Shown here: piece by piece, positions 6,222 through 18,815 of the stretch
Layout: each line of letters opens with the position of its first letter
Position numbering within the stretch: the stretch's first letter is position 1
Origin: Desulfosarcina sp. BuS5
GTDB lineage: Bacteria > Desulfobacterota > Desulfobacteria > Desulfobacterales > BuS5
Length of the DNA: 64,000 bases
NCBI RefSeq assembly: GCF_028752835.1
Contig: NZ_CP087952.1
Location: 1,531,041 to 1,595,040 of the forward strand
Direction: 5' to 3'
Translations under genes and position numbers: made by a program
The notes under the pieces: generated by a model
Told to the model about the DNA's origin: nothing
What the model saw: the letters and a program-made list of their open reading frames with translations, nothing else
Databases searched by the model: none

Positions 6222-8483
6222 GTGCCAAGATAAATCCGAATCGTTGGGATAAGACACAAGGTCTTTGAAACTCGATATTGTTACCAAGTGGGTGCTCGGG
6301 AAACGGTTTGTTTCCTTCATCTCTGCAGGGCTTGCTCTGGCATTGATGTTAAGATAGTCCCACCTGACTAAAGACTAACCAGCAGGTCAGTAGCGAAGTC
6401 CACAGGTAAACCCGGTAACGGGAGTCTGGAGCTGGACGGAGCAAGATTGCAGGCTCTGTATTGAGCCCCGAAAAATGTATGGTTGTGGTCATTGTGATAA
6501 TCCTGCTTGCAGGAAAAAGCCGACGCTTTGGAGACAGCGGAAGGCAGCAGTCCTGAATATGCTAAGGCAAGTATTCAGGACACCACCGGGGTCTTAGACC
6601 AGGGCATGTACTCAAAGGGGTAGCTCGGGAACTTGGGAGACCCGGATGTTTCCTTGGGTAAAAAGAACGGTAACAGGAAATCCAGCGCAAGCGAAATCCC
6701 GGCGTTGCATAGGAATGTCCCGCCTTGCAACGAGTCTGCCATTGGCAGAAACACAAACATTAAAAGATGGGCGATACAAGGTATCAGGGGAGGATAGCGA
6801 AGAGCGAACGAACCTGAGATAAACATTCGGAAGTCTTAGCAGATCATAGTACCGATGATTAAGAATTGAACTATCTTGATCGGAAAGGTGGGGAAGTGAT
6901 GCCCAAGCGACCCACTGCAGGGAAGGTGAAGCAGGGTATAACGTTTTTTTGGCAGGAATTATGGGAGATACACAGATGTCACAAACCATATCAACAAAAA
7001 GCCGAGAAATTGCAAGAACGGTCGCTTGCAATTCCAGACCGATAGAATGGGGACAACCACCGGTGTTAACAGGTGGGTCATCCCTTATCAAAATCGAGCT
7101 GCTTGCTCAAAGTAATCCTGAACTGGTATTTACATCAGTAGTCCATCGGATAGACTTTGATTTACTGAAACAATCCTTTCGTAAAATTCGGAAAAGCAAA
7201 TCTGCAGGAGTGGACAAGGTTACGGCAAAGGAGTATGCCGAAAATCTTGATCAAAACCTCTATAATCTGTATGAACGACTGCGGAGAGGACAGTACGTTG
7301 CGTCTCCTGTAAAGCGTATCTGGATAGACAAGGAAGGAGGGAAAAAGCGTCCAATTGGCATACCTGTACTTGAGGATAAAATTGTCCAGAAAGCAGCAGC
7401 AGCCATATTGAATGTCATATTTGACAGGAATTTTTACAATTTTTCCCATGCATTCAGAAAAGGTCGGAGCCAACACATGGCAATCAAAGATTTACGTGAG
7501 CAATGCTTGAAGCAGAATATCAGCTGGATAGTAAGCGCAGATATTACAGGACTATTTGACAATATTAATCACGAGTTACTTAAAGACATGATACGTCGGA
7601 GAGTAAGTGACGGCGGAATGATTCGCCTGATAGGGAAGTGGTTGAATGCAGGCGTAATGGAGGAAGGCAACCTGACGTACTCTGAAACGGGCACTCCACA
7701 GGGAGGAGTAATTTCCCCTGTGCTCAGTAATATCTTTCTTCATTATGTTTTAGATGACTGGTACGTGAAAGAAGTGATCCCCCGGATGAAAGGGAGATGC
7801 TCCATCATACGCTGGGCGGATGATTTCATCCTCGGGTTCGAGTATGAAAAAGACGCATTGCGTGTCATGGATGTATTACCCAGGCGGTTCGAACAGTTCG
7901 AGCTGTCACTTCACCCGGAAAAGACAAAACTGATTCGATTTTCCAAACGCATTAGCGGAAAGGGAAACGGGACGTTTGATTTTTTAGGGTTTACATTTTA
8001 CTGGTCAAAATCATTAAAAGGGTACATGGTAATAAAGAAAAAGACGGCAAGAAAGCGTTCAAGCCGTTTTATGAAGAGAATATGGATATGGTGCAAGGAT
8101 AACCGTCATAAGCCAATGGCCGAGCAGTATGAGATTCTTTGCAGTAAACTGCGAGGTTTTTACCAGTACTTTGGAGTAATAAGTAACTACAAAGTGCTGG
8201 AAGTTGTGTTTGAATATACTGAGAAAGCATGGCGTCGATGGTTAAGCCGAAGAAGTCACAAGGGCGAAGTAATGTTCGAGGACTTGCGCACAACATACCC
8301 ACTGCCATTACCCAGAATAGTCCATAATATTTGATGCCGTAAGGGCTGCAAAGTTATACGCCAAACGGGGTGTCGCCTGTTTGGTTGATAATCCGGTAAA
8401 AAGGATTTGAACCGAGGAACCGTATGAGGGAAATCTTCACGTACGGGTCTGTAGGGGGGGCGTCGGGTAACCGATGCTCCTAC
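6222..8483 (+). mobile_element. Group II intron
   Basis: The 5' end GTGCCAAG at 6222 fits the GTGYG-type start of group II introns. The long structured region before the reverse transcriptase (6222-6960) lacks other genes. Near the 3' end, a domain V-like hairpin with paired arms ACCGTATG and CGTACGGG spans about 8419-8451, followed by a domain VI-like hairpin (GTCGG-GTAA-CCGAT) ending in CTCCTAC at 8483. Compared with IS copy 2 the inserted segment is 6220-8488, so two nucleotides on the left and five on the right are extra exon-side bases. Exact splice points are inferred. Confidence 0.85.
6961..8334 (+). CDS. ltrA: Group II intron reverse transcriptase/maturase
   Basis: About 457 residues. 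It promotes splicing and retrohoming of the intron that encodes it. Reverse-transcriptase blocks are visible: KRPIGIPVLEDKIVQ, DITGLFDNINHELL, GTPQGGVISPVLSN and the catalytic WADD in IIRWADDFILG (Trp in place of the common Tyr). A maturase X domain follows (FDFLGFTFYW to SKLRGFYQYFG). No HNH endonuclease domain follows, as in endonuclease-less bacterial lineages. An in-frame TTG at 6949 is an alternative start; ATG 6961 is used here because a TTG start needs no support from the weak upstream sequence. Confidence 0.93.
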   Translation: MGDTQMSQTISTKSREIARTVACNSRPIEWGQPPVLTGGSSLIKIELLAQSNPELVFTSVVHRIDFDLLKQSFRKIRKSKSAGVDKVTAKEYAENLDQNLYNLYERLRRGQYVASPVKRIWIDKEGGKKRPIGIPVLEDKIVQKAAAAILNVIFDRNFYNFSHAFRKGRSQHMAIKDLREQCLKQNISWIVSADITGLFDNINHELLKDMIRRRVSDGGMIRLIGKWLNAGVMEEGNLTYSETGTPQGGVISPVLSNIFLHYVLDDWYVKEVIPRMKGRCSIIRWADDFILGFEYEKDALRVMDVLPRRFEQFELSLHPEKTKLIRFSKRISGKGNGTFDFLGFTFYWSKSLKGYMVIKKKTARKRSSRFMKRIWIWCKDNRHKPMAEQYEILCSKLRGFYQYFGVISNYKVLEVVFEYTEKAWRRWLSRRSHKGEVMFEDLRTTYPLPLPRIVHNI

Positions 8484-9311
8484 CTGGAGTTGAACTCTTT
8501 ACCCAAAACATCAATTAAAATTTTTGATCCACGGGACTTGTCGATTTTGAACAGCACATACATTTCAGCCTTGAAAACCCATGTCCAAAACTTGTCTTTG
8601 TTTTCCTTATGGCCGGTTTCATCGACATTTACTGCTTCCTCGAAAGGTAAACGATTGAGCAATTCACTGTATGGCGCTTCCAGGGACTGACTTACTTTTT
8701 CAATTACTTTTCGCAGATATCCACGGGAAACATTTTCTCCAAGGACGTCTCGGATAAATTTTCTGATTGTGGAAAACGATGCATGACAGACATTTTTCAT
8801 ATAGGCAACCAAGGCTGTCAAGCGCTCTTTGAAGAGCCCTTCCTTGACTATATTAGCAGGAAAAGGCATGTAATGAATTTGCTGACATTTCTCGCACCAT
8901 ACCGGATACGAACGATGTTCTTCTTTGATTATCGGCAGCTCCGGCAGTTCCATTTGTTGGATAATACGAGGAGGCGCATCAATTATATGAACTTCCCCAT
9001 CGCATACAGGGCAAACAGTTAGTATGTATGGATGAGTTTTGTTTATCTCATCCTCGGTGAAGGGAGTACGAAGATGCCTCTCATGTCCGGGTTGGCCTCC
9101 GATCTTACGATTTCCTTCTTTTTGATTTTTTGGCTTTGTGATCTCATCAGAAGAAGGGCGTTTGCTGGAATTAGATGAGTTTTTTGAAAGCTTGGCAACC
9201 TTGACCTCCAAAGCCTTTATCTGCTCTTCCTGAAATTCAATAGTATTGCTTAAATCACACAGGATTTTGACCGTAACTTTCAGCCCGGCATTATACAAAG
9301 CCAATGCTTCA

Positions 9312-10199
9312 TCATGCGTCATGACATAACTCCCTGCGAAAGTTTTTAGTCAAGGGATAAACATAAACAGCCTTTTTGGAAAGTAGTGGTTGCTTTGATT
9401 TGCTGAGCTTGCCCTGACCGGTTGTCTGCCCCACACAGATCCAATTATCCGCTTTATAACAGGTACCGCGGTAGCGCTCTGTGTCAACAAAGGTTTCAAG
9501 CAGATAAACCGGATGATGATATAAAGTTTTCCAATCTTGTAACAAGCGATGACGGTTCAATGCCAATAAATATGATGCCAAACAAGGGACTTGAACCCAT
9601 GGCAGGATCAAAAAACGGAGATTGTTGGCGATTAGATGAAGATTGTTCTCTCTAATCTTTTTGCTCCAGCCAATGAAACGATCTCGTGCTCCAATATACC
9701 ATGGCGCTGACCCCCATGCCAAACACGCAATAGGGCGATTATGAGAAAATGCAATATATTTGAGATGCTCCCCAACTGGTTGAGTATAACCAAGATAATG
9801 GTACTCACTTACAAGACCATTGAATATCTTCTCAAAAGAAGTTCTGCGAACCTGGTCAAGTTTTATAGGAAACAGGTCTTCGACAGAACAATGAACAGGA
9901 GTTTTATCGACTATTACCCAGGATGTTTTTTTTCGCTTTGCAAGAGGGTTGGGAGGGGTACATTTTCGGGCAGGCAGTTTAATAAAACCCTTTGATTCCA
10001 AAAGAAGCAGCAGGCTTCGGCAGATCATATCTTTAAGAACACCATTAGACTGTCTCCAGTTCCATTCCCTGCAGACTTCTTGAGAAATGAAGCGTCTGCT
10101 TTTGTCAGGATGTGATTCAATAATCCGCCTGACGGTCGCTATATTTTGCCTGGTGACTGATCGCCTCCGATATGTTATGACTGATTCCATTCCTGACAC
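9312..10199 (-). CDS. DUF4338 (DruA-like) protein of IS66 element, copy 1
   Basis: 295 residues. The DUF4338 family includes DruA of the Druantia anti-phage system and many transposon-linked proteins. Recognised stretches: EYHYLGYTQPVGEHLKYIAF, RDRFIGWSKKIRENNLH, FLILPWVQVPCLASYLL and ETFVDTERYRGTCYKADNW. The N-terminal 90 residues look like winged-helix segments (REWNWRQSNGVLKD). It overlaps the transposase start by 11 bp inside the same inverted repeats, so it travels with the element. Identical in length to the copy at 26494-27381. Role unknown: a transposition accessory or a passenger defence-type gene. Confidence 0.85.
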   Translation of the reverse strand: MSGMESVITYRRRSVTRQNIATVRRIIESHPDKSRRFISQEVCREWNWRQSNGVLKDMICRSLLLLLESKGFIKLPARKCTPPNPLAKRKKTSWVIVDKTPVHCSVEDLFPIKLDQVRRTSFEKIFNGLVSEYHYLGYTQPVGEHLKYIAFSHNRPIACLAWGSAPWYIGARDRFIGWSKKIRENNLHLIANNLRFLILPWVQVPCLASYLLALNRHRLLQDWKTLYHHPVYLLETFVDTERYRGTCYKADNWICVGQTTGQGKLSKSKQPLLSKKAVYVYPLTKNFRRELCHDA

Positions 10200-13335: not shown

Positions 13336-13393
13336 CAAAGGTGATTTCCGCAATTTTTAAGCAATAAAACCTTTCTAATAAGGAGGTAAGGCA

Positions 13394-13995
13394 TGATCGG
13401 TCGTTTTTCCCGCCCTGGCGTCTATCGTGAACTGCTGCAACAGGGAGAATTTTTAAGAGTATTTTAGCGGGGATTCTTGCCCTGCTGAGTTTTCTTCTGG
13501 ATAGAGGAATATATCCTGCGTCGGCAATTACGCATTCATTTAACCTATCTGAAGATACCATAGCCACAATAGCAATGGTCTTTGCCCTGGCATCTGTGAC
13601 TATAAACGGACTTCCCATAATCTGGGGTGGTATCAAAGGCCTTGTACAGCGCAAACTGAATGTGGATGAACTCGTAAGCCTGGCAATCATAGCATGTCTT
13701 GTTCGGGGGAATTTTCTGGAGGCGGCTTTTGTCAGCTTTGTTATGATGTTGGGTGCTTTAATAGAAGAAGCAGCAAGCAGTTCAGCACGAAAGTCGATTC
13801 AATCTCTAATTGGTATCGCACCGCAAACAGCCACAGTGCTTATTAATGGCCGGGCGATCACAAAACCGATTAACGAAGTTAAGGTTGGAGAAATCCTTCT
13901 GGTTAAACCTGGCGAGCGTATCCCCGTCGATACTGTGGTAAGAAAGGGAAACAGTGCGGTGGACGAATTTTCAATAACGGGTGAAGCGAGGTGTC
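13394..13995 (+). pseudogene. P1B-type heavy-metal ATPase fragment
   Basis: After AAGGAGG (13380-13386) and an ATG at 13394, one frame runs only to 13467; the frame next to it (from about 13427) encodes transmembrane helices and the actuator domain of a ZntA/CadA-type ATPase: TINGLPIIWGGIKGL, then LNVDELVSLAIIACL, then VKPGERIPVDT and EFSITGEA. The sequence stops at the TGE motif; the phosphorylation site DKTGT, ATP-binding domain and last helices are absent. So the gene is truncated at its 3' end and probably frameshifted at its 5' end. The MarR gene abuts the break. Confidence 0.85.
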
Positions 13996-14418
13996 ATGCA
14001 CCATACCGACATAGAAAAACTTTCTTCAATTTTAATCGAGCTTTATGAAAAGATGTCTTCCTGGGAACATGCCGTGGTTAAGGAAAGCGGTCTAACCCCT
14101 GCCCAAATGCATGCCATCGAAATTATGGGCCATCAGGAGAGTCTTCGGATGAAGGAACTGGCCCAAAAGCTGGGTGTCACAACAGGAACTCTCACGGTTA
14201 TGATCGACCGACTGGAACAAAATGATTTGATATTGCGAAAGCCTCATGAAAACGATCGTCGTTCCATCGTTCTTGTCCTCACGAAAAAGGGTCAAAAATA
14301 TTTTAAAGAACACCATAAATTGCACCTTGAACTAACCAGTGAAATCACATCTTCATTGAATGAAGATGAAACAAAGCAATTTTACACTTTTATTGAAAAA
14401 CTTGTCAGTCACTTTTGA
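13996..14418 (+). CDS. MarR-family transcriptional regulator
   Basis: About 140 residues with the winged-helix core LRMKELAQKLGVTTGTLTVM and the wing LEQNDLILRKPHENDRRS, whose DxRS motif is diagnostic of MarR. ATG 13996 is preferred; a GTG at 13981 lies in the P-type ATPase remnant. It ends 36 nt before the permease gene at 14455, so it likely controls metal efflux here. The paired TTGA-N4-TCAA sites at 13286-13335 are plausible operators. Confidence 0.88.
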   Translation: MHHTDIEKLSSILIELYEKMSSWEHAVVKESGLTPAQMHAIEIMGHQESLRMKELAQKLGVTTGTLTVMIDRLEQNDLILRKPHENDRRSIVLVLTKKGQKYFKEHHKLHLELTSEITSSLNEDETKQFYTFIEKLVSHF

Positions 14419-14454: not shown

Positions 14455-15597
14455 ATGAACGTTTTAGTCACTATTATTTTACAGTCCTGGCATCTATTAC
14501 TGGAAGCATCGATATATATTCTTTTTGGTATTCTTGTGGGTGGTTTGCTGAAGGTCTTTATCAGTCCGGCAACAGTGGCCGGACATCTGGGAAAGGGACG
14601 CTTTACTTCCGTATTTAAGGCGGCTTTGTTCGGAATACCCATCCCTTTATGATCCTGTGGAGTGCTGCCGGCGGCAGCATCACTAAAAAAGCAGGGGGCC
14701 AACAACGGCGCTACCACTGCTTTTTTGATATCAACACCGGAATCCGGAGTGGATTCCATAGCCATAACCTATGCTTTGCTTGATCCGCTGATGACAGTGG
14801 CCCGACCGGTAGCGGCATTTCTCACCGCTATTGCCGCCGGAATAACTGAAAATCTGTTTCATAGCGCTAACGATAAAGACAAGATAAAGGTGGACTTAAG
14901 CTGCCCGATAGATGGGTGTTGTGACGGGATTGACTGTTCGCCGGATGAGCATAAACACCATCATTCCTTTGTTGAAAAATTACAGGCAGGCCTCAAGTTT
15001 GCAGTAACCGATATTTGGGGAGATCTTGCAGGATGGTTTTTTACAGGAATCCTTTTGGCCGGTTTGATTACTGCGCTGGTCCCTTCACGTCTTTTTATCC
15101 AATATCTCGGGTGTGGTTTTTCTTCCATGCTTATTATGCTGGCCATGGGCATTCCGCTCTATATATGTGCAACAGCCTCAACTCCCATTACGGCAGCATT
15201 CATTCTTAAAGGAGTAAGCCCGGGTGCCGCCCTTGTCTTTTTACTGGTCGGACCGGCAACCAATATTACTTCGTTATCGGTTCTTTTCGGACTCCTTGGC
15301 AAGAGAGCTACTGCCATCTATCTGCTTACCCTGGCCGTTTTTGCCGTGTTTTGCGGATTGATCCTGGATCAGCTCTATATAGGGTTTGGATTCTCGGCCA
15401 GGGCAGTGGCCGGCCAGGCGGCTGAACTCATTCCTTTTTATGGCCAACTGGCAGGTGCCATAATTTTACTCGCATTGTCGGTCAGGCCGATTTGCGATAG
15501 GCTAAAGAATTTTTTCAGCAAGGCAAGCCATCATCATGCCCACGGTACAGTCTGCGGCTGTGAGCCCAGCTCACCTTTTCCAATAGATAAAATCTGA
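14455..15597 (+). CDS. SO_0444-like Cu/Zn efflux permease with in-frame TGA (candidate selenoprotein)
   Basis: 380 codons in one frame if the TGA at 14650-14652 (codon 66) is read through. The protein is a DUF318/SO_0444-type permease, proposed to export copper or zinc. The N-terminal helices end at GIPIPL, the TGA follows, then SCGVLPAAASLKKQGA. Homologues have Cys in this place (PLCSCGV, recalled), so TGA replaces a conserved Cys. A second permease half follows (LYICATASTPITAAFI, GPATNITSLSVL). A Cys/His-rich linker (CCDGIDC, HKHHH) and tail (HHHAHGTVCGC) suit metal binding. A 7-bp stem with a G-first loop lies 17 nt after the TGA. The alternative is a nonsense mutation; the P-type ATPase next door is broken. 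Confidence 0.8.
14650..14679 (+). promoter_or_regulatory. Candidate bacterial SECIS-like hairpin
   Basis: TGA at 14650-14652 is followed by TGCTGCC (14663-14669), loop GGC (14670-14672) and GGCAGCA (14673-14679). The stem has 7 bp, the loop has G in its first positions, and the loop starts 18 nt after the TGA. This fits published bacterial SECIS constraints as I recall them (loop 16-37 nt from UGA, G among the first two loop bases). Confidence 0.5.
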
Positions 15598-16748: not shown

Positions 16749-16790
16749 AAGGCGTAACTTGTATTCGGTTTTGGGTTGCGCCTTTATTTT
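16749..16790 (+). terminator. Terminator-like hairpin before the heme operon
   Basis: AAGGCGTAAC (16749-16758) pairs with GTTGCGCCTT (16775-16784), one mismatch, followed by TATTTTT. It lies 45-50 nt upstream of the TonB receptor start. It could end an upstream transcript or act as an attenuator for iron or heme control; the sequence does not decide. Confidence 0.5.
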
Positions 16791-16834
16791 TGCGCTTTAA
16801 TAAAACGGTTCCAAGAACAATGGGAGATAAGACA

Positions 16835-18815
16835 ATGATGAAAAAAACAAGAGGTTTATTACCTGTTTTTGTTTCGCTGATTTTTACTGTTTTTACAGTT
16901 TCAGCAGTTTTTGCACAGAACAAAGATGTGAAAGAAATTAAAATCGAAAAGGTGGTTGTCACCGCTACCAGGACAGAAAAGGATATAATGGATGTTCCGA
17001 CTTCGATGTCTGTTGTTAATGAAAAGGATATCAATCGTACTGGAACAAACAGCACACCGGAACTTCTTCGTGATATTCCGGGTGTGTTTCTCTTTGACAA
17101 TGCGGCCTCAGGTGCAAAGAGACTGATGATACGCGGCGAATCCGGATCAAGAGTGCTTATCATGATAGACGGACAGAAGATTTCTGAACAAAAATCAATG
17201 GACGGAGCGCCGATATTTATTGCTCCCGGGGATATAGAACGTATCGAAGTGGTAAAAGGGCCTGCTTCCGTGCTTTATGGCTCGGAGGCTATTGGCGGAG
17301 TTGTGAATATCATTACTAAAAAGGGAGGAGACAAACCTGTCGGGCTGACCTTAAGCGGCACATACGACTCATCAACAGACGGCGTTGCAGGATATGGATC
17401 TGTTTTTGGAACAATTAAAGGTTTTAGCTACAGGCTTTCCGGCAATTATTCAGATAATGATGACAGGGAAACCCCAAAGGGTAAGCTCGATAATTCAGCA
17501 TACGAGTTTAAAGACGGGAACGCTTTTTTAGGCTATGACTGGGAAAAAATATCGATAGGCGCAAATTACCAGCGCTATGACAGCGAAATCGAAGTACATA
17601 CATCGCCGGATACAATAAGCCCGCCGCTCACAGCATTTCAGCTTGATCTGCCGGAGTGGGACAGGGAAAAGTACGGCGTCTTTTTTGAAGCCTGCGACAA
17701 TAGACAAAGAACTTCGCATTACAACGCAAAACGATCAGGACGCATATGGCGGTACCCTCCAGTTAGACTGGATTCCCCTTGAAAAACACTACCTCATTAC
17801 AGGGCTTGATGTTGTTCTGGACTATCTGGATGCTGACCAACGCCAGTTCGACACGACGACAACGAGTTTTCCTTTTCCAGTTACAACTGTAACGGATGAC
17901 CTTTTTAATGATGAAGCTAACATGAAAACCTACGCCCTGTATGCCCAAGACGAATGGAATATTATAAATGACTTTGTCCTTACAGCAGGCTTAAGGTACA
18001 CATGGGTCGATTCAGAGTTGGAAGAAACAAACGATCCAGGCCTTACTGAAGAATCGAGTGATGATACCAATCTCACAGGAAGCCTTGGCCTGGTATATTC
18101 AGGTATCGATAACCTGGCACTTCGCACTCTGTATTCCCAGGGTTACCGGTACCCGAATCTGTTGCAGCTTTTTATCGGTACAGTGCACGGGAGTTCCGAC
18201 CCTACATTTGCCAATCCTGATCTTGATCCCGAGACGTCCGATAATTTTGAAGTAGGTGTTCGTTTTGACAACAAAGAGTTTCTCCTTGACCTGACAGGGT
18301 TTTATTCATCGGCTGATGACTATATTACAACTGTAGTGGTAACAGGAGGTGATAAGTATGATAATGTTGATGAAGCCACTACATACGGGGTTGAGATGCT
18401 GGCGCAATATACCTTTGAATCTGTTGGAATTACACCATATATTAACGGTACCTGGATACGAAGAAAATTCGAGACCGATGCTGGTCCAACAAAAGATACC
18501 GGCCTTCCTGACTTAAATGGCCGCTTTGGATTGCGGTACGAAAAGAATCTTGAAATTATTCCTGCGTTGTGGGGAGATCTTTTCGTTCGGGCAGCCAGTG
18601 ATGCTGATAAAGAAGACTTAAGCGATGGAACTGTGGAACATTTTGACGGATGGGGAACTCTAAATCTGGCTCTGGGAGTTGATTTAGGGAAACGCAGTCA
18701 ATATAAATTGAGCCTGGAGCTTAACAATCTATTAGACAAGGAATACACGCATGCGACTGAAAGCCTTATGGCGGCTGAACGGCATGTTGTTGTTAAGCTG
18801 AGCGCTACATTTTAG
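16835..18815 (+). pseudogene. TonB-dependent outer-membrane receptor (heme/siderophore type), one frameshift
   Basis: Start at ATG 16835 follows GGGAG (16822-16826) and gives a signal peptide (hydrophobic core VFVSLIFTVFTVSAVFA) and a TonB box (VVVTATRTEK). The plug domain contains RDIPGVFLFDNAASG and VVKGPASVLYGSEAIGG. The frame is lost near 17685-17700 and continues one frame over (IDKELRITTQND onward) through beta-barrel strands to the terminal NLLDKEYTHATES and an aromatic-ended strand (VVVKLSATF). About 660 residues if repaired. A single one-base event explains it, so it may be an assembly error. It heads an operon for heme uptake and degradation; heme as substrate is inferred from that. 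Confidence 0.85.

Follow-up and report, generated by a model that had tools for sequence, protein, structure and literature searches.

Within a permease gene of Desulfosarcina sp. BuS5 lies a stop codon whose reading as selenocysteine (Sec) is almost certain. The gene lies in a stretch of 64,000 nucleotides (contig NZ_CP087952.1, positions 1,531,041 to 1,595,040 of the forward strand), referred to below as the window. We are highly confident that it encodes a selenoprotein of the SO_0444 family, a putative metal-efflux permease in which UGA codon 66 would be decoded as Sec by the host SelB and tRNA-Sec(UCA) under the direction of a downstream hairpin. Computation establishes the Sec codon with its hairpin, the presence of the decoding genes, the action of purifying selection, and Sec/Cys exchange among close relatives; from these we infer the presence of Sec in the actual permease protein. 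The features of the region, in window coordinates, are these:

about 13393..14048, + strand: what is left of a metal P-type (E1-E2) ATPase, truncated and disrupted close to its start
13981..14418, + strand: MarR-family regulator, directly upstream of the permease
14455..15597, + strand: SO_0444-family permease (NF033936; Pfam ArsP_1 PF03773), 380 codons with a single in-frame TGA
14650..14652, + strand: TGA codon 66 (predicted Sec), first Cys position of the invariant C-S-C-G motif
14656..14658, + strand: Cys68, the other invariant Cys of the motif (U-S-C-G)
14662..14680, + strand: SECIS-like hairpin GTGCTGCC-GGC-GGCAGCAT, first loop G 18 nt past the TGA
14917..14922, + strand: Cys155-Cys156 in the long inter-half loop, both Cys here; site B, the predicted Sec position in other members
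15166..15168, + strand: Cys238, invariant; in the second internal repeat it is the pseudo-symmetric counterpart of residue 66

Reading the sequence confirmed the frame as the original prediction had described it, with one TGA at codon 66 in the context GIPIPL-U-SCGVLPAAASL and no other lesion in the 314 codons downstream. Against the NF033936 profile the frame scores 400 bits, above the curated cut-off of 300 for the SO_0444 family, and covers profile positions 1-349 of 351; the Pfam match is ArsP_1 (PF03773). In an alignment of 54 homologues, with TGA read as Cys, C66, S67, C68 and G69 are invariant, in agreement with the family motif CSCG given in that prediction, and the TGA thus aligns with the Cys of homologues. 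C238 is also invariant, and C155 and C156 are nearly so. Standard-code ORF calling cuts the gene at 14455-15597 into two broken ORFs; because such a gene is split, Sec-containing exporters are easily overlooked in sulfate reducers.

The genome of the window bacterium (4.18 Mb, two contigs) carries selA, selB and selC, the genes whose presence the prediction made a point to check, and selD as well. SelA scores 617 bits and SelB 385 bits, and a tRNA-Sec with anticodon tca is present. The SelD gene itself has an in-frame TGA, and SelD is among the selenoprotein families that have been verified (PMC13188914), so reading of UGA as Sec is to be expected in this organism. SelB presence was rejected as a discriminator between Sec and Cys forms, as nearly every genome of the order carries SelB: it was found in 32 of 32 good genomes with a Cys-only family member and in 33 of 34 with a TGA member, and being equally common in both sets it does not discriminate by itself. 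A second, more divergent selB, adjoining a second tRNA-Sec (tca), lies at C1:1778126-1780191 of the same genome (L238 6127-8192) among insertion-sequence remnants, the main selB and tRNA-Sec gene being elsewhere. One repeat, consisting of a 295-residue protein beside a transposase-like one, is found both near this second selB (L238 9002-11187) and in the window (8480-10199), and is probably a mobile element.

The hairpin with the GGC loop, claimed in the original prediction as a 7-bp stem, proved to have seven Watson-Crick pairs and one G.U pair (8 bp in all) with the loop G at +18. In bacterial SECIS elements the loop G typically lies about 16-37 nt after the UGA. Compared with dinucleotide shuffles, the bare 51-nt fold stands out only mildly (z -1.21); among synonymous-codon shuffles encoding the same peptide, 2% are as stable as the window hairpin (z -2.55). 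Outside the window's own clade, TGCTGCCGGCGGCAGCA is found at 3 loci, all of them after TGA, and at 0 of 124 Cys loci.

TGA at this codon recurs widely in the family. Among the matches listed, 62 of the 389 genomes of the order have an in-frame TGA in a family member scoring over the cut-off, and no over-cut-off member in these 389 genomes, again among the matches listed, has an in-frame TAA or TAG (1/3 to the power 62). The proposed comparison of codon 66 across other genomes found both TGA and Cys codons there. We inspected codons individually at about 70 TGA-bearing loci, and all TGAs fall on either of two Cys positions, with the exception of a second TGA in the frame-damaged locus L118. 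Site A corresponds to the leading Cys of CSCG, with TGA in the window gene and 33 further distinct loci of the tree set; beyond that set, more site-A TGA loci occur in Desulfomonilaceae and in other orders. Site B, about 87 codons downstream, is a Cys of the inter-half loop, aligned with Cys155 of the Cys155-Cys156 pair that is near-invariant in most members, and has TGA at 25 loci of the tree set. Besides L132, L133 and L200, at least 22 loci carry the site-B TGA (L135, L148 and L151, for example). Three proteins have both TGAs: L132 and L133, from one family, and L200, from another family outside the order. A degenerate motif pattern containing TGA matched in 5 of 395 sampled genomes of the phylum, and the same pattern reversed gave 0 matches in those 395. 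On a tree of 159 proteins, the minimum number of state changes is 7 for site A and 5 for site B, which implies repeated exchange of Sec and Cys.

To compare hairpins across the family, the best local hairpin within 42 nt past the codon was scored against 200 synonymous-codon shuffles of the same peptide. This measure was adopted because raw minimum free energy over the 48 nt after the codon, tried as well, gave no separation of TGA from Cys loci (p 0.14), whereas local hairpins do separate them. The mean z is -1.36 after site-A TGA (34 loci) and -0.14 after Cys codons (122 loci), with p 4e-10, a value that overstates independence since the loci are related; after site-B TGA the mean is -1.34. 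Protein sequence thus does not account for the full stability of hairpins after TGA, whereas in Cys homologues there is no such excess. Several types occur, with a GGC loop (as in the window), a CGTGTC loop (the commonest), a GGTC loop, or AGTT-like loops (in Desulfomonilaceae). Stems in Desulfomonilaceae vary with compensation (CCCGC-AGTT-GCGGG, CCAGC-GGTT-GCTGG, CCCGC-GGTC-GCGGG), and compensated stems are found at site B too (CTGTGC-AGTT-GCACAG, GGATAC-AGTT-GTATCC, GTTGTGC-AGTA-GCACAAC). For the CGTGTC type (class 2), 92% of stem cells are paired at TGA loci, compared with 39.5% in the same columns of Cys homologues. We consider it quite likely that SO_0444 permeases use Sec at two separate, independently exchanged positions, sites A and B, each with its own covarying hairpin, and that some, L132 and L133 and independently L200, use both. 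If so, these double-TGA proteins would be membrane transporters with two Sec residues.

The window protein belongs to a fully supported clade of four, in which the window gene and L118 have TGA, L190 has TGC, and L052 has TGT. The nearest relatives by sequence carry Cys (L190 at 89% and L052 at 86% identity to the window protein), yet TGCTGCCGGCGGCAGCA is retained in all four clade members, including the Cys relatives L052 and L190. Since these nearest relatives have TGT and TGC and still keep the same hairpin, the Sec/Cys exchange is recent; the simplest reading would be a clade ancestor with Sec, followed by two separate returns to Cys through different codons. Close relatives that are otherwise about 86-89% identical, with Sec or Cys at one residue, amount to a natural experiment on selenium in metal export. 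The genome itself holds a second family member, L002 (C1:179108-179419, minus strand), which has CSCG and an internal deletion and is 181 residues long. Because this sole Cys paralogue has that deletion, the Sec gene is the only intact family copy in the genome. An intact copy of the Cys paralogue (L003) is found in the same-genus genome G001.

The closest other TGA relative, L118, whose DNA is that of L196, lacks one base further down, which is either real decay or a fault of assembly. L118 and L196 are an identical contig stretch (2886 nt, 100%), filed under contig Deltaproteobacteria CSMAG_3040 and under genome G391. The latter is assigned to a family that does not belong to the window's order, though its permease is nearest to that of the window. 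The identity may reflect the same assembly, or either mis-binning or transfer.

Past the TGA, purifying selection is acting on the branch of the window: codon changes in that part number 4 nonsynonymous and 13 synonymous (P 5e-5, for an assumed neutral share of 0.72), a ratio resembling that of intact Cys relatives, and dN/dS downstream of the TGA is 0.08-0.10. Over the upstream 63 codons dN/dS is 0.17, which indicates purifying selection there too. These values bear on the possibility that the TGA is a nonsense mutation marking a gene in decay, like the adjoining ATPase, whose state the original prediction had raised as a warning. The ATPase is truly broken, L118 combines its TGA with a one-base deletion, and the nearest relatives encode Cys. 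Even so, we judge a nonsense mutation very improbable, given selection on the window branch across 314 codons with no further lesion, TGA at codon 66 in dozens of other genomes, TGA as the sole stop in over-cut-off members among the matches listed, and the hairpin evidence from synonymous shuffles, stem pairing and the distribution of TGCTGCCGGCGGCAGCA. The warning was thus sound for the ATPase and finds no support for the permease. As evidence against Sec, the prediction had named a lack of selB or selC, a non-Cys residue in close relatives, or further frame damage beside the TGA. Here selB and selC are present and close relatives have Cys at codon 66, yet the TGA relative L118 does have its deletion. 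It is scarcely credible that the TGA is read through as Trp or Cys, in a genome with complete Sec machinery and a permease gene that itself ends in TGA, or that a shorter protein restarts at GTG 14662. A 311-residue ORF does run from that GTG, but the protein would lose its first helices and the invariant C66 and C68, and the upstream codons, too, are under purifying selection. Machinery, homologue codons, hairpins and purifying selection together give strong support to the reading of UGA as Sec at a conserved Cys of this permease.

The MarR gene and the permease are probably co-transcribed, and the MarR protein would be the likely regulator of the permease. The gene order ATPase-MarR-permease is conserved in L052 and L118, and L052 has an intact ATPase copy of 642 residues. 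This shared order with an intact ATPase points to a metal-response operon that, in the window, would have lost its ATPase. With the ATPase broken here and a one-base deletion in L118, decay of the operon is possible in some lineages. Downstream in the window, a TonB-dependent receptor (16790-18815) is split into two overlapping frames, 16790-17782 and 17643-18815, by a frameshift either real or from sequencing.

BLASTP shows the two halves of the permease to be homologous (E 1e-10), with residue 66 aligned to Cys238; in an AlphaFold2 model (pLDDT 83) both residues lie at helix breaks. No solved structure matched the permease in a search by sequence, and Foldseek on the model returned no match with E under 0.001. 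In a second look by structural alignment, DASS/INDY, ArsB and TRAP transporters scored Z 11-13 (best NaCT 13.3 and ArsB 13.1), near the helical background. As Foldseek alone gave no significant match, the resemblance of the predicted fold to these elevator-type ion transporters is a lead. In DASS/INDY, ArsB and TRAP transporters, the substrate is held between two symmetric hairpin tips. The position of Sec66 as pseudo-symmetric partner of Cys238 suggests that it may be a central metal ligand. In the mechanism we consider most likely, host SelB and tRNA-Sec(UCA), guided by the downstream hairpin, would insert Sec at UGA 66, where the invariant CSCG motif has its first Cys. The two homologous repeats put residue 66 and Cys238 at equivalent positions, and during export Sec66, Cys68 and Cys238 would form a central site for a soft metal (Cu, Zn, Cd or similar), in which Sec would allow tighter binding or faster ligand exchange than Cys. 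Both the coordination of metal by Sec and the Cu/Zn substrate are proposed by analogy with the family. Sec66 might instead, though we think it unlikely, have a redox role, as a selenenylsulfide switch with Cys68 or Cys238. Selenoproteins are mostly thought to be oxidoreductases (PMC13188914), and the second Sec site lies within a Cys-rich loop. Favoring direct metal binding, though not decisively, S-C-G here belongs to one of a transporter's transmembrane repeats, and the symmetry partner Cys238 is invariant.

The original prediction had called this a candidate new selenoprotein. A May 2026 review of prokaryotic selenoproteins already catalogues the SO_0444 family Cu/Zn efflux transporter (NF033936) as UxC with 1 Sec, giving WP_014809615.1 and noting it as annotated in GenBank (PMC13188914). 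In the Desulfomonile tiedjei DSM 6799 genome (G775, 100% plasmid identity), locus L210 has USCG at site A. We take WP_014809615.1 to be the D. tiedjei protein. Because NF033936 is listed and D. tiedjei has USCG at site A, the window protein adds a new member to a selenoprotein family already in the catalogue. It shares with L210 both the family and the U-S-C-G position, while the hairpins of the two lineages differ, with an AGTT loop in D. tiedjei and a GGC loop in the window; the window gene further differs from the catalogued UxC form in the Sec/Cys exchange inside its own close clade. The review assigns different Sec positions to separate subfamilies, yet lists one form for NF033936 (PMC13188914). 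Site B and the double-Sec forms therefore appear to be absent from the main text of the 2026 catalogue, the part searched. If the link between WP_014809615.1 and D. tiedjei were wrong and the listed UxC were the U-G-C of the loop, site A would be the unlisted one. Looked for in freely available papers under the alternative family names DUF318, YraQ, ArsP and COG0701, a Sec form did not turn up.

SaoE (NF040736), of the selenoprotein-rich Sao system, is a related permease, to whose profile the window protein scores 175.6 bits, below the cut-off of 325, so it is not a member of that family. A relative in Nitratiruptor is induced by Cd and Cu (PMC10092412). Under stress by Zn and Cu, Shewanella oneidensis needs its SO_0444 gene, as shown with complementation (PMC3219624). 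The product belongs to the same protein family as the window permease; the operon of SO_0444 has a ZntR-like regulator, whereas the window gene stands behind a MarR-type regulator and the remnant of a metal P-type ATPase.
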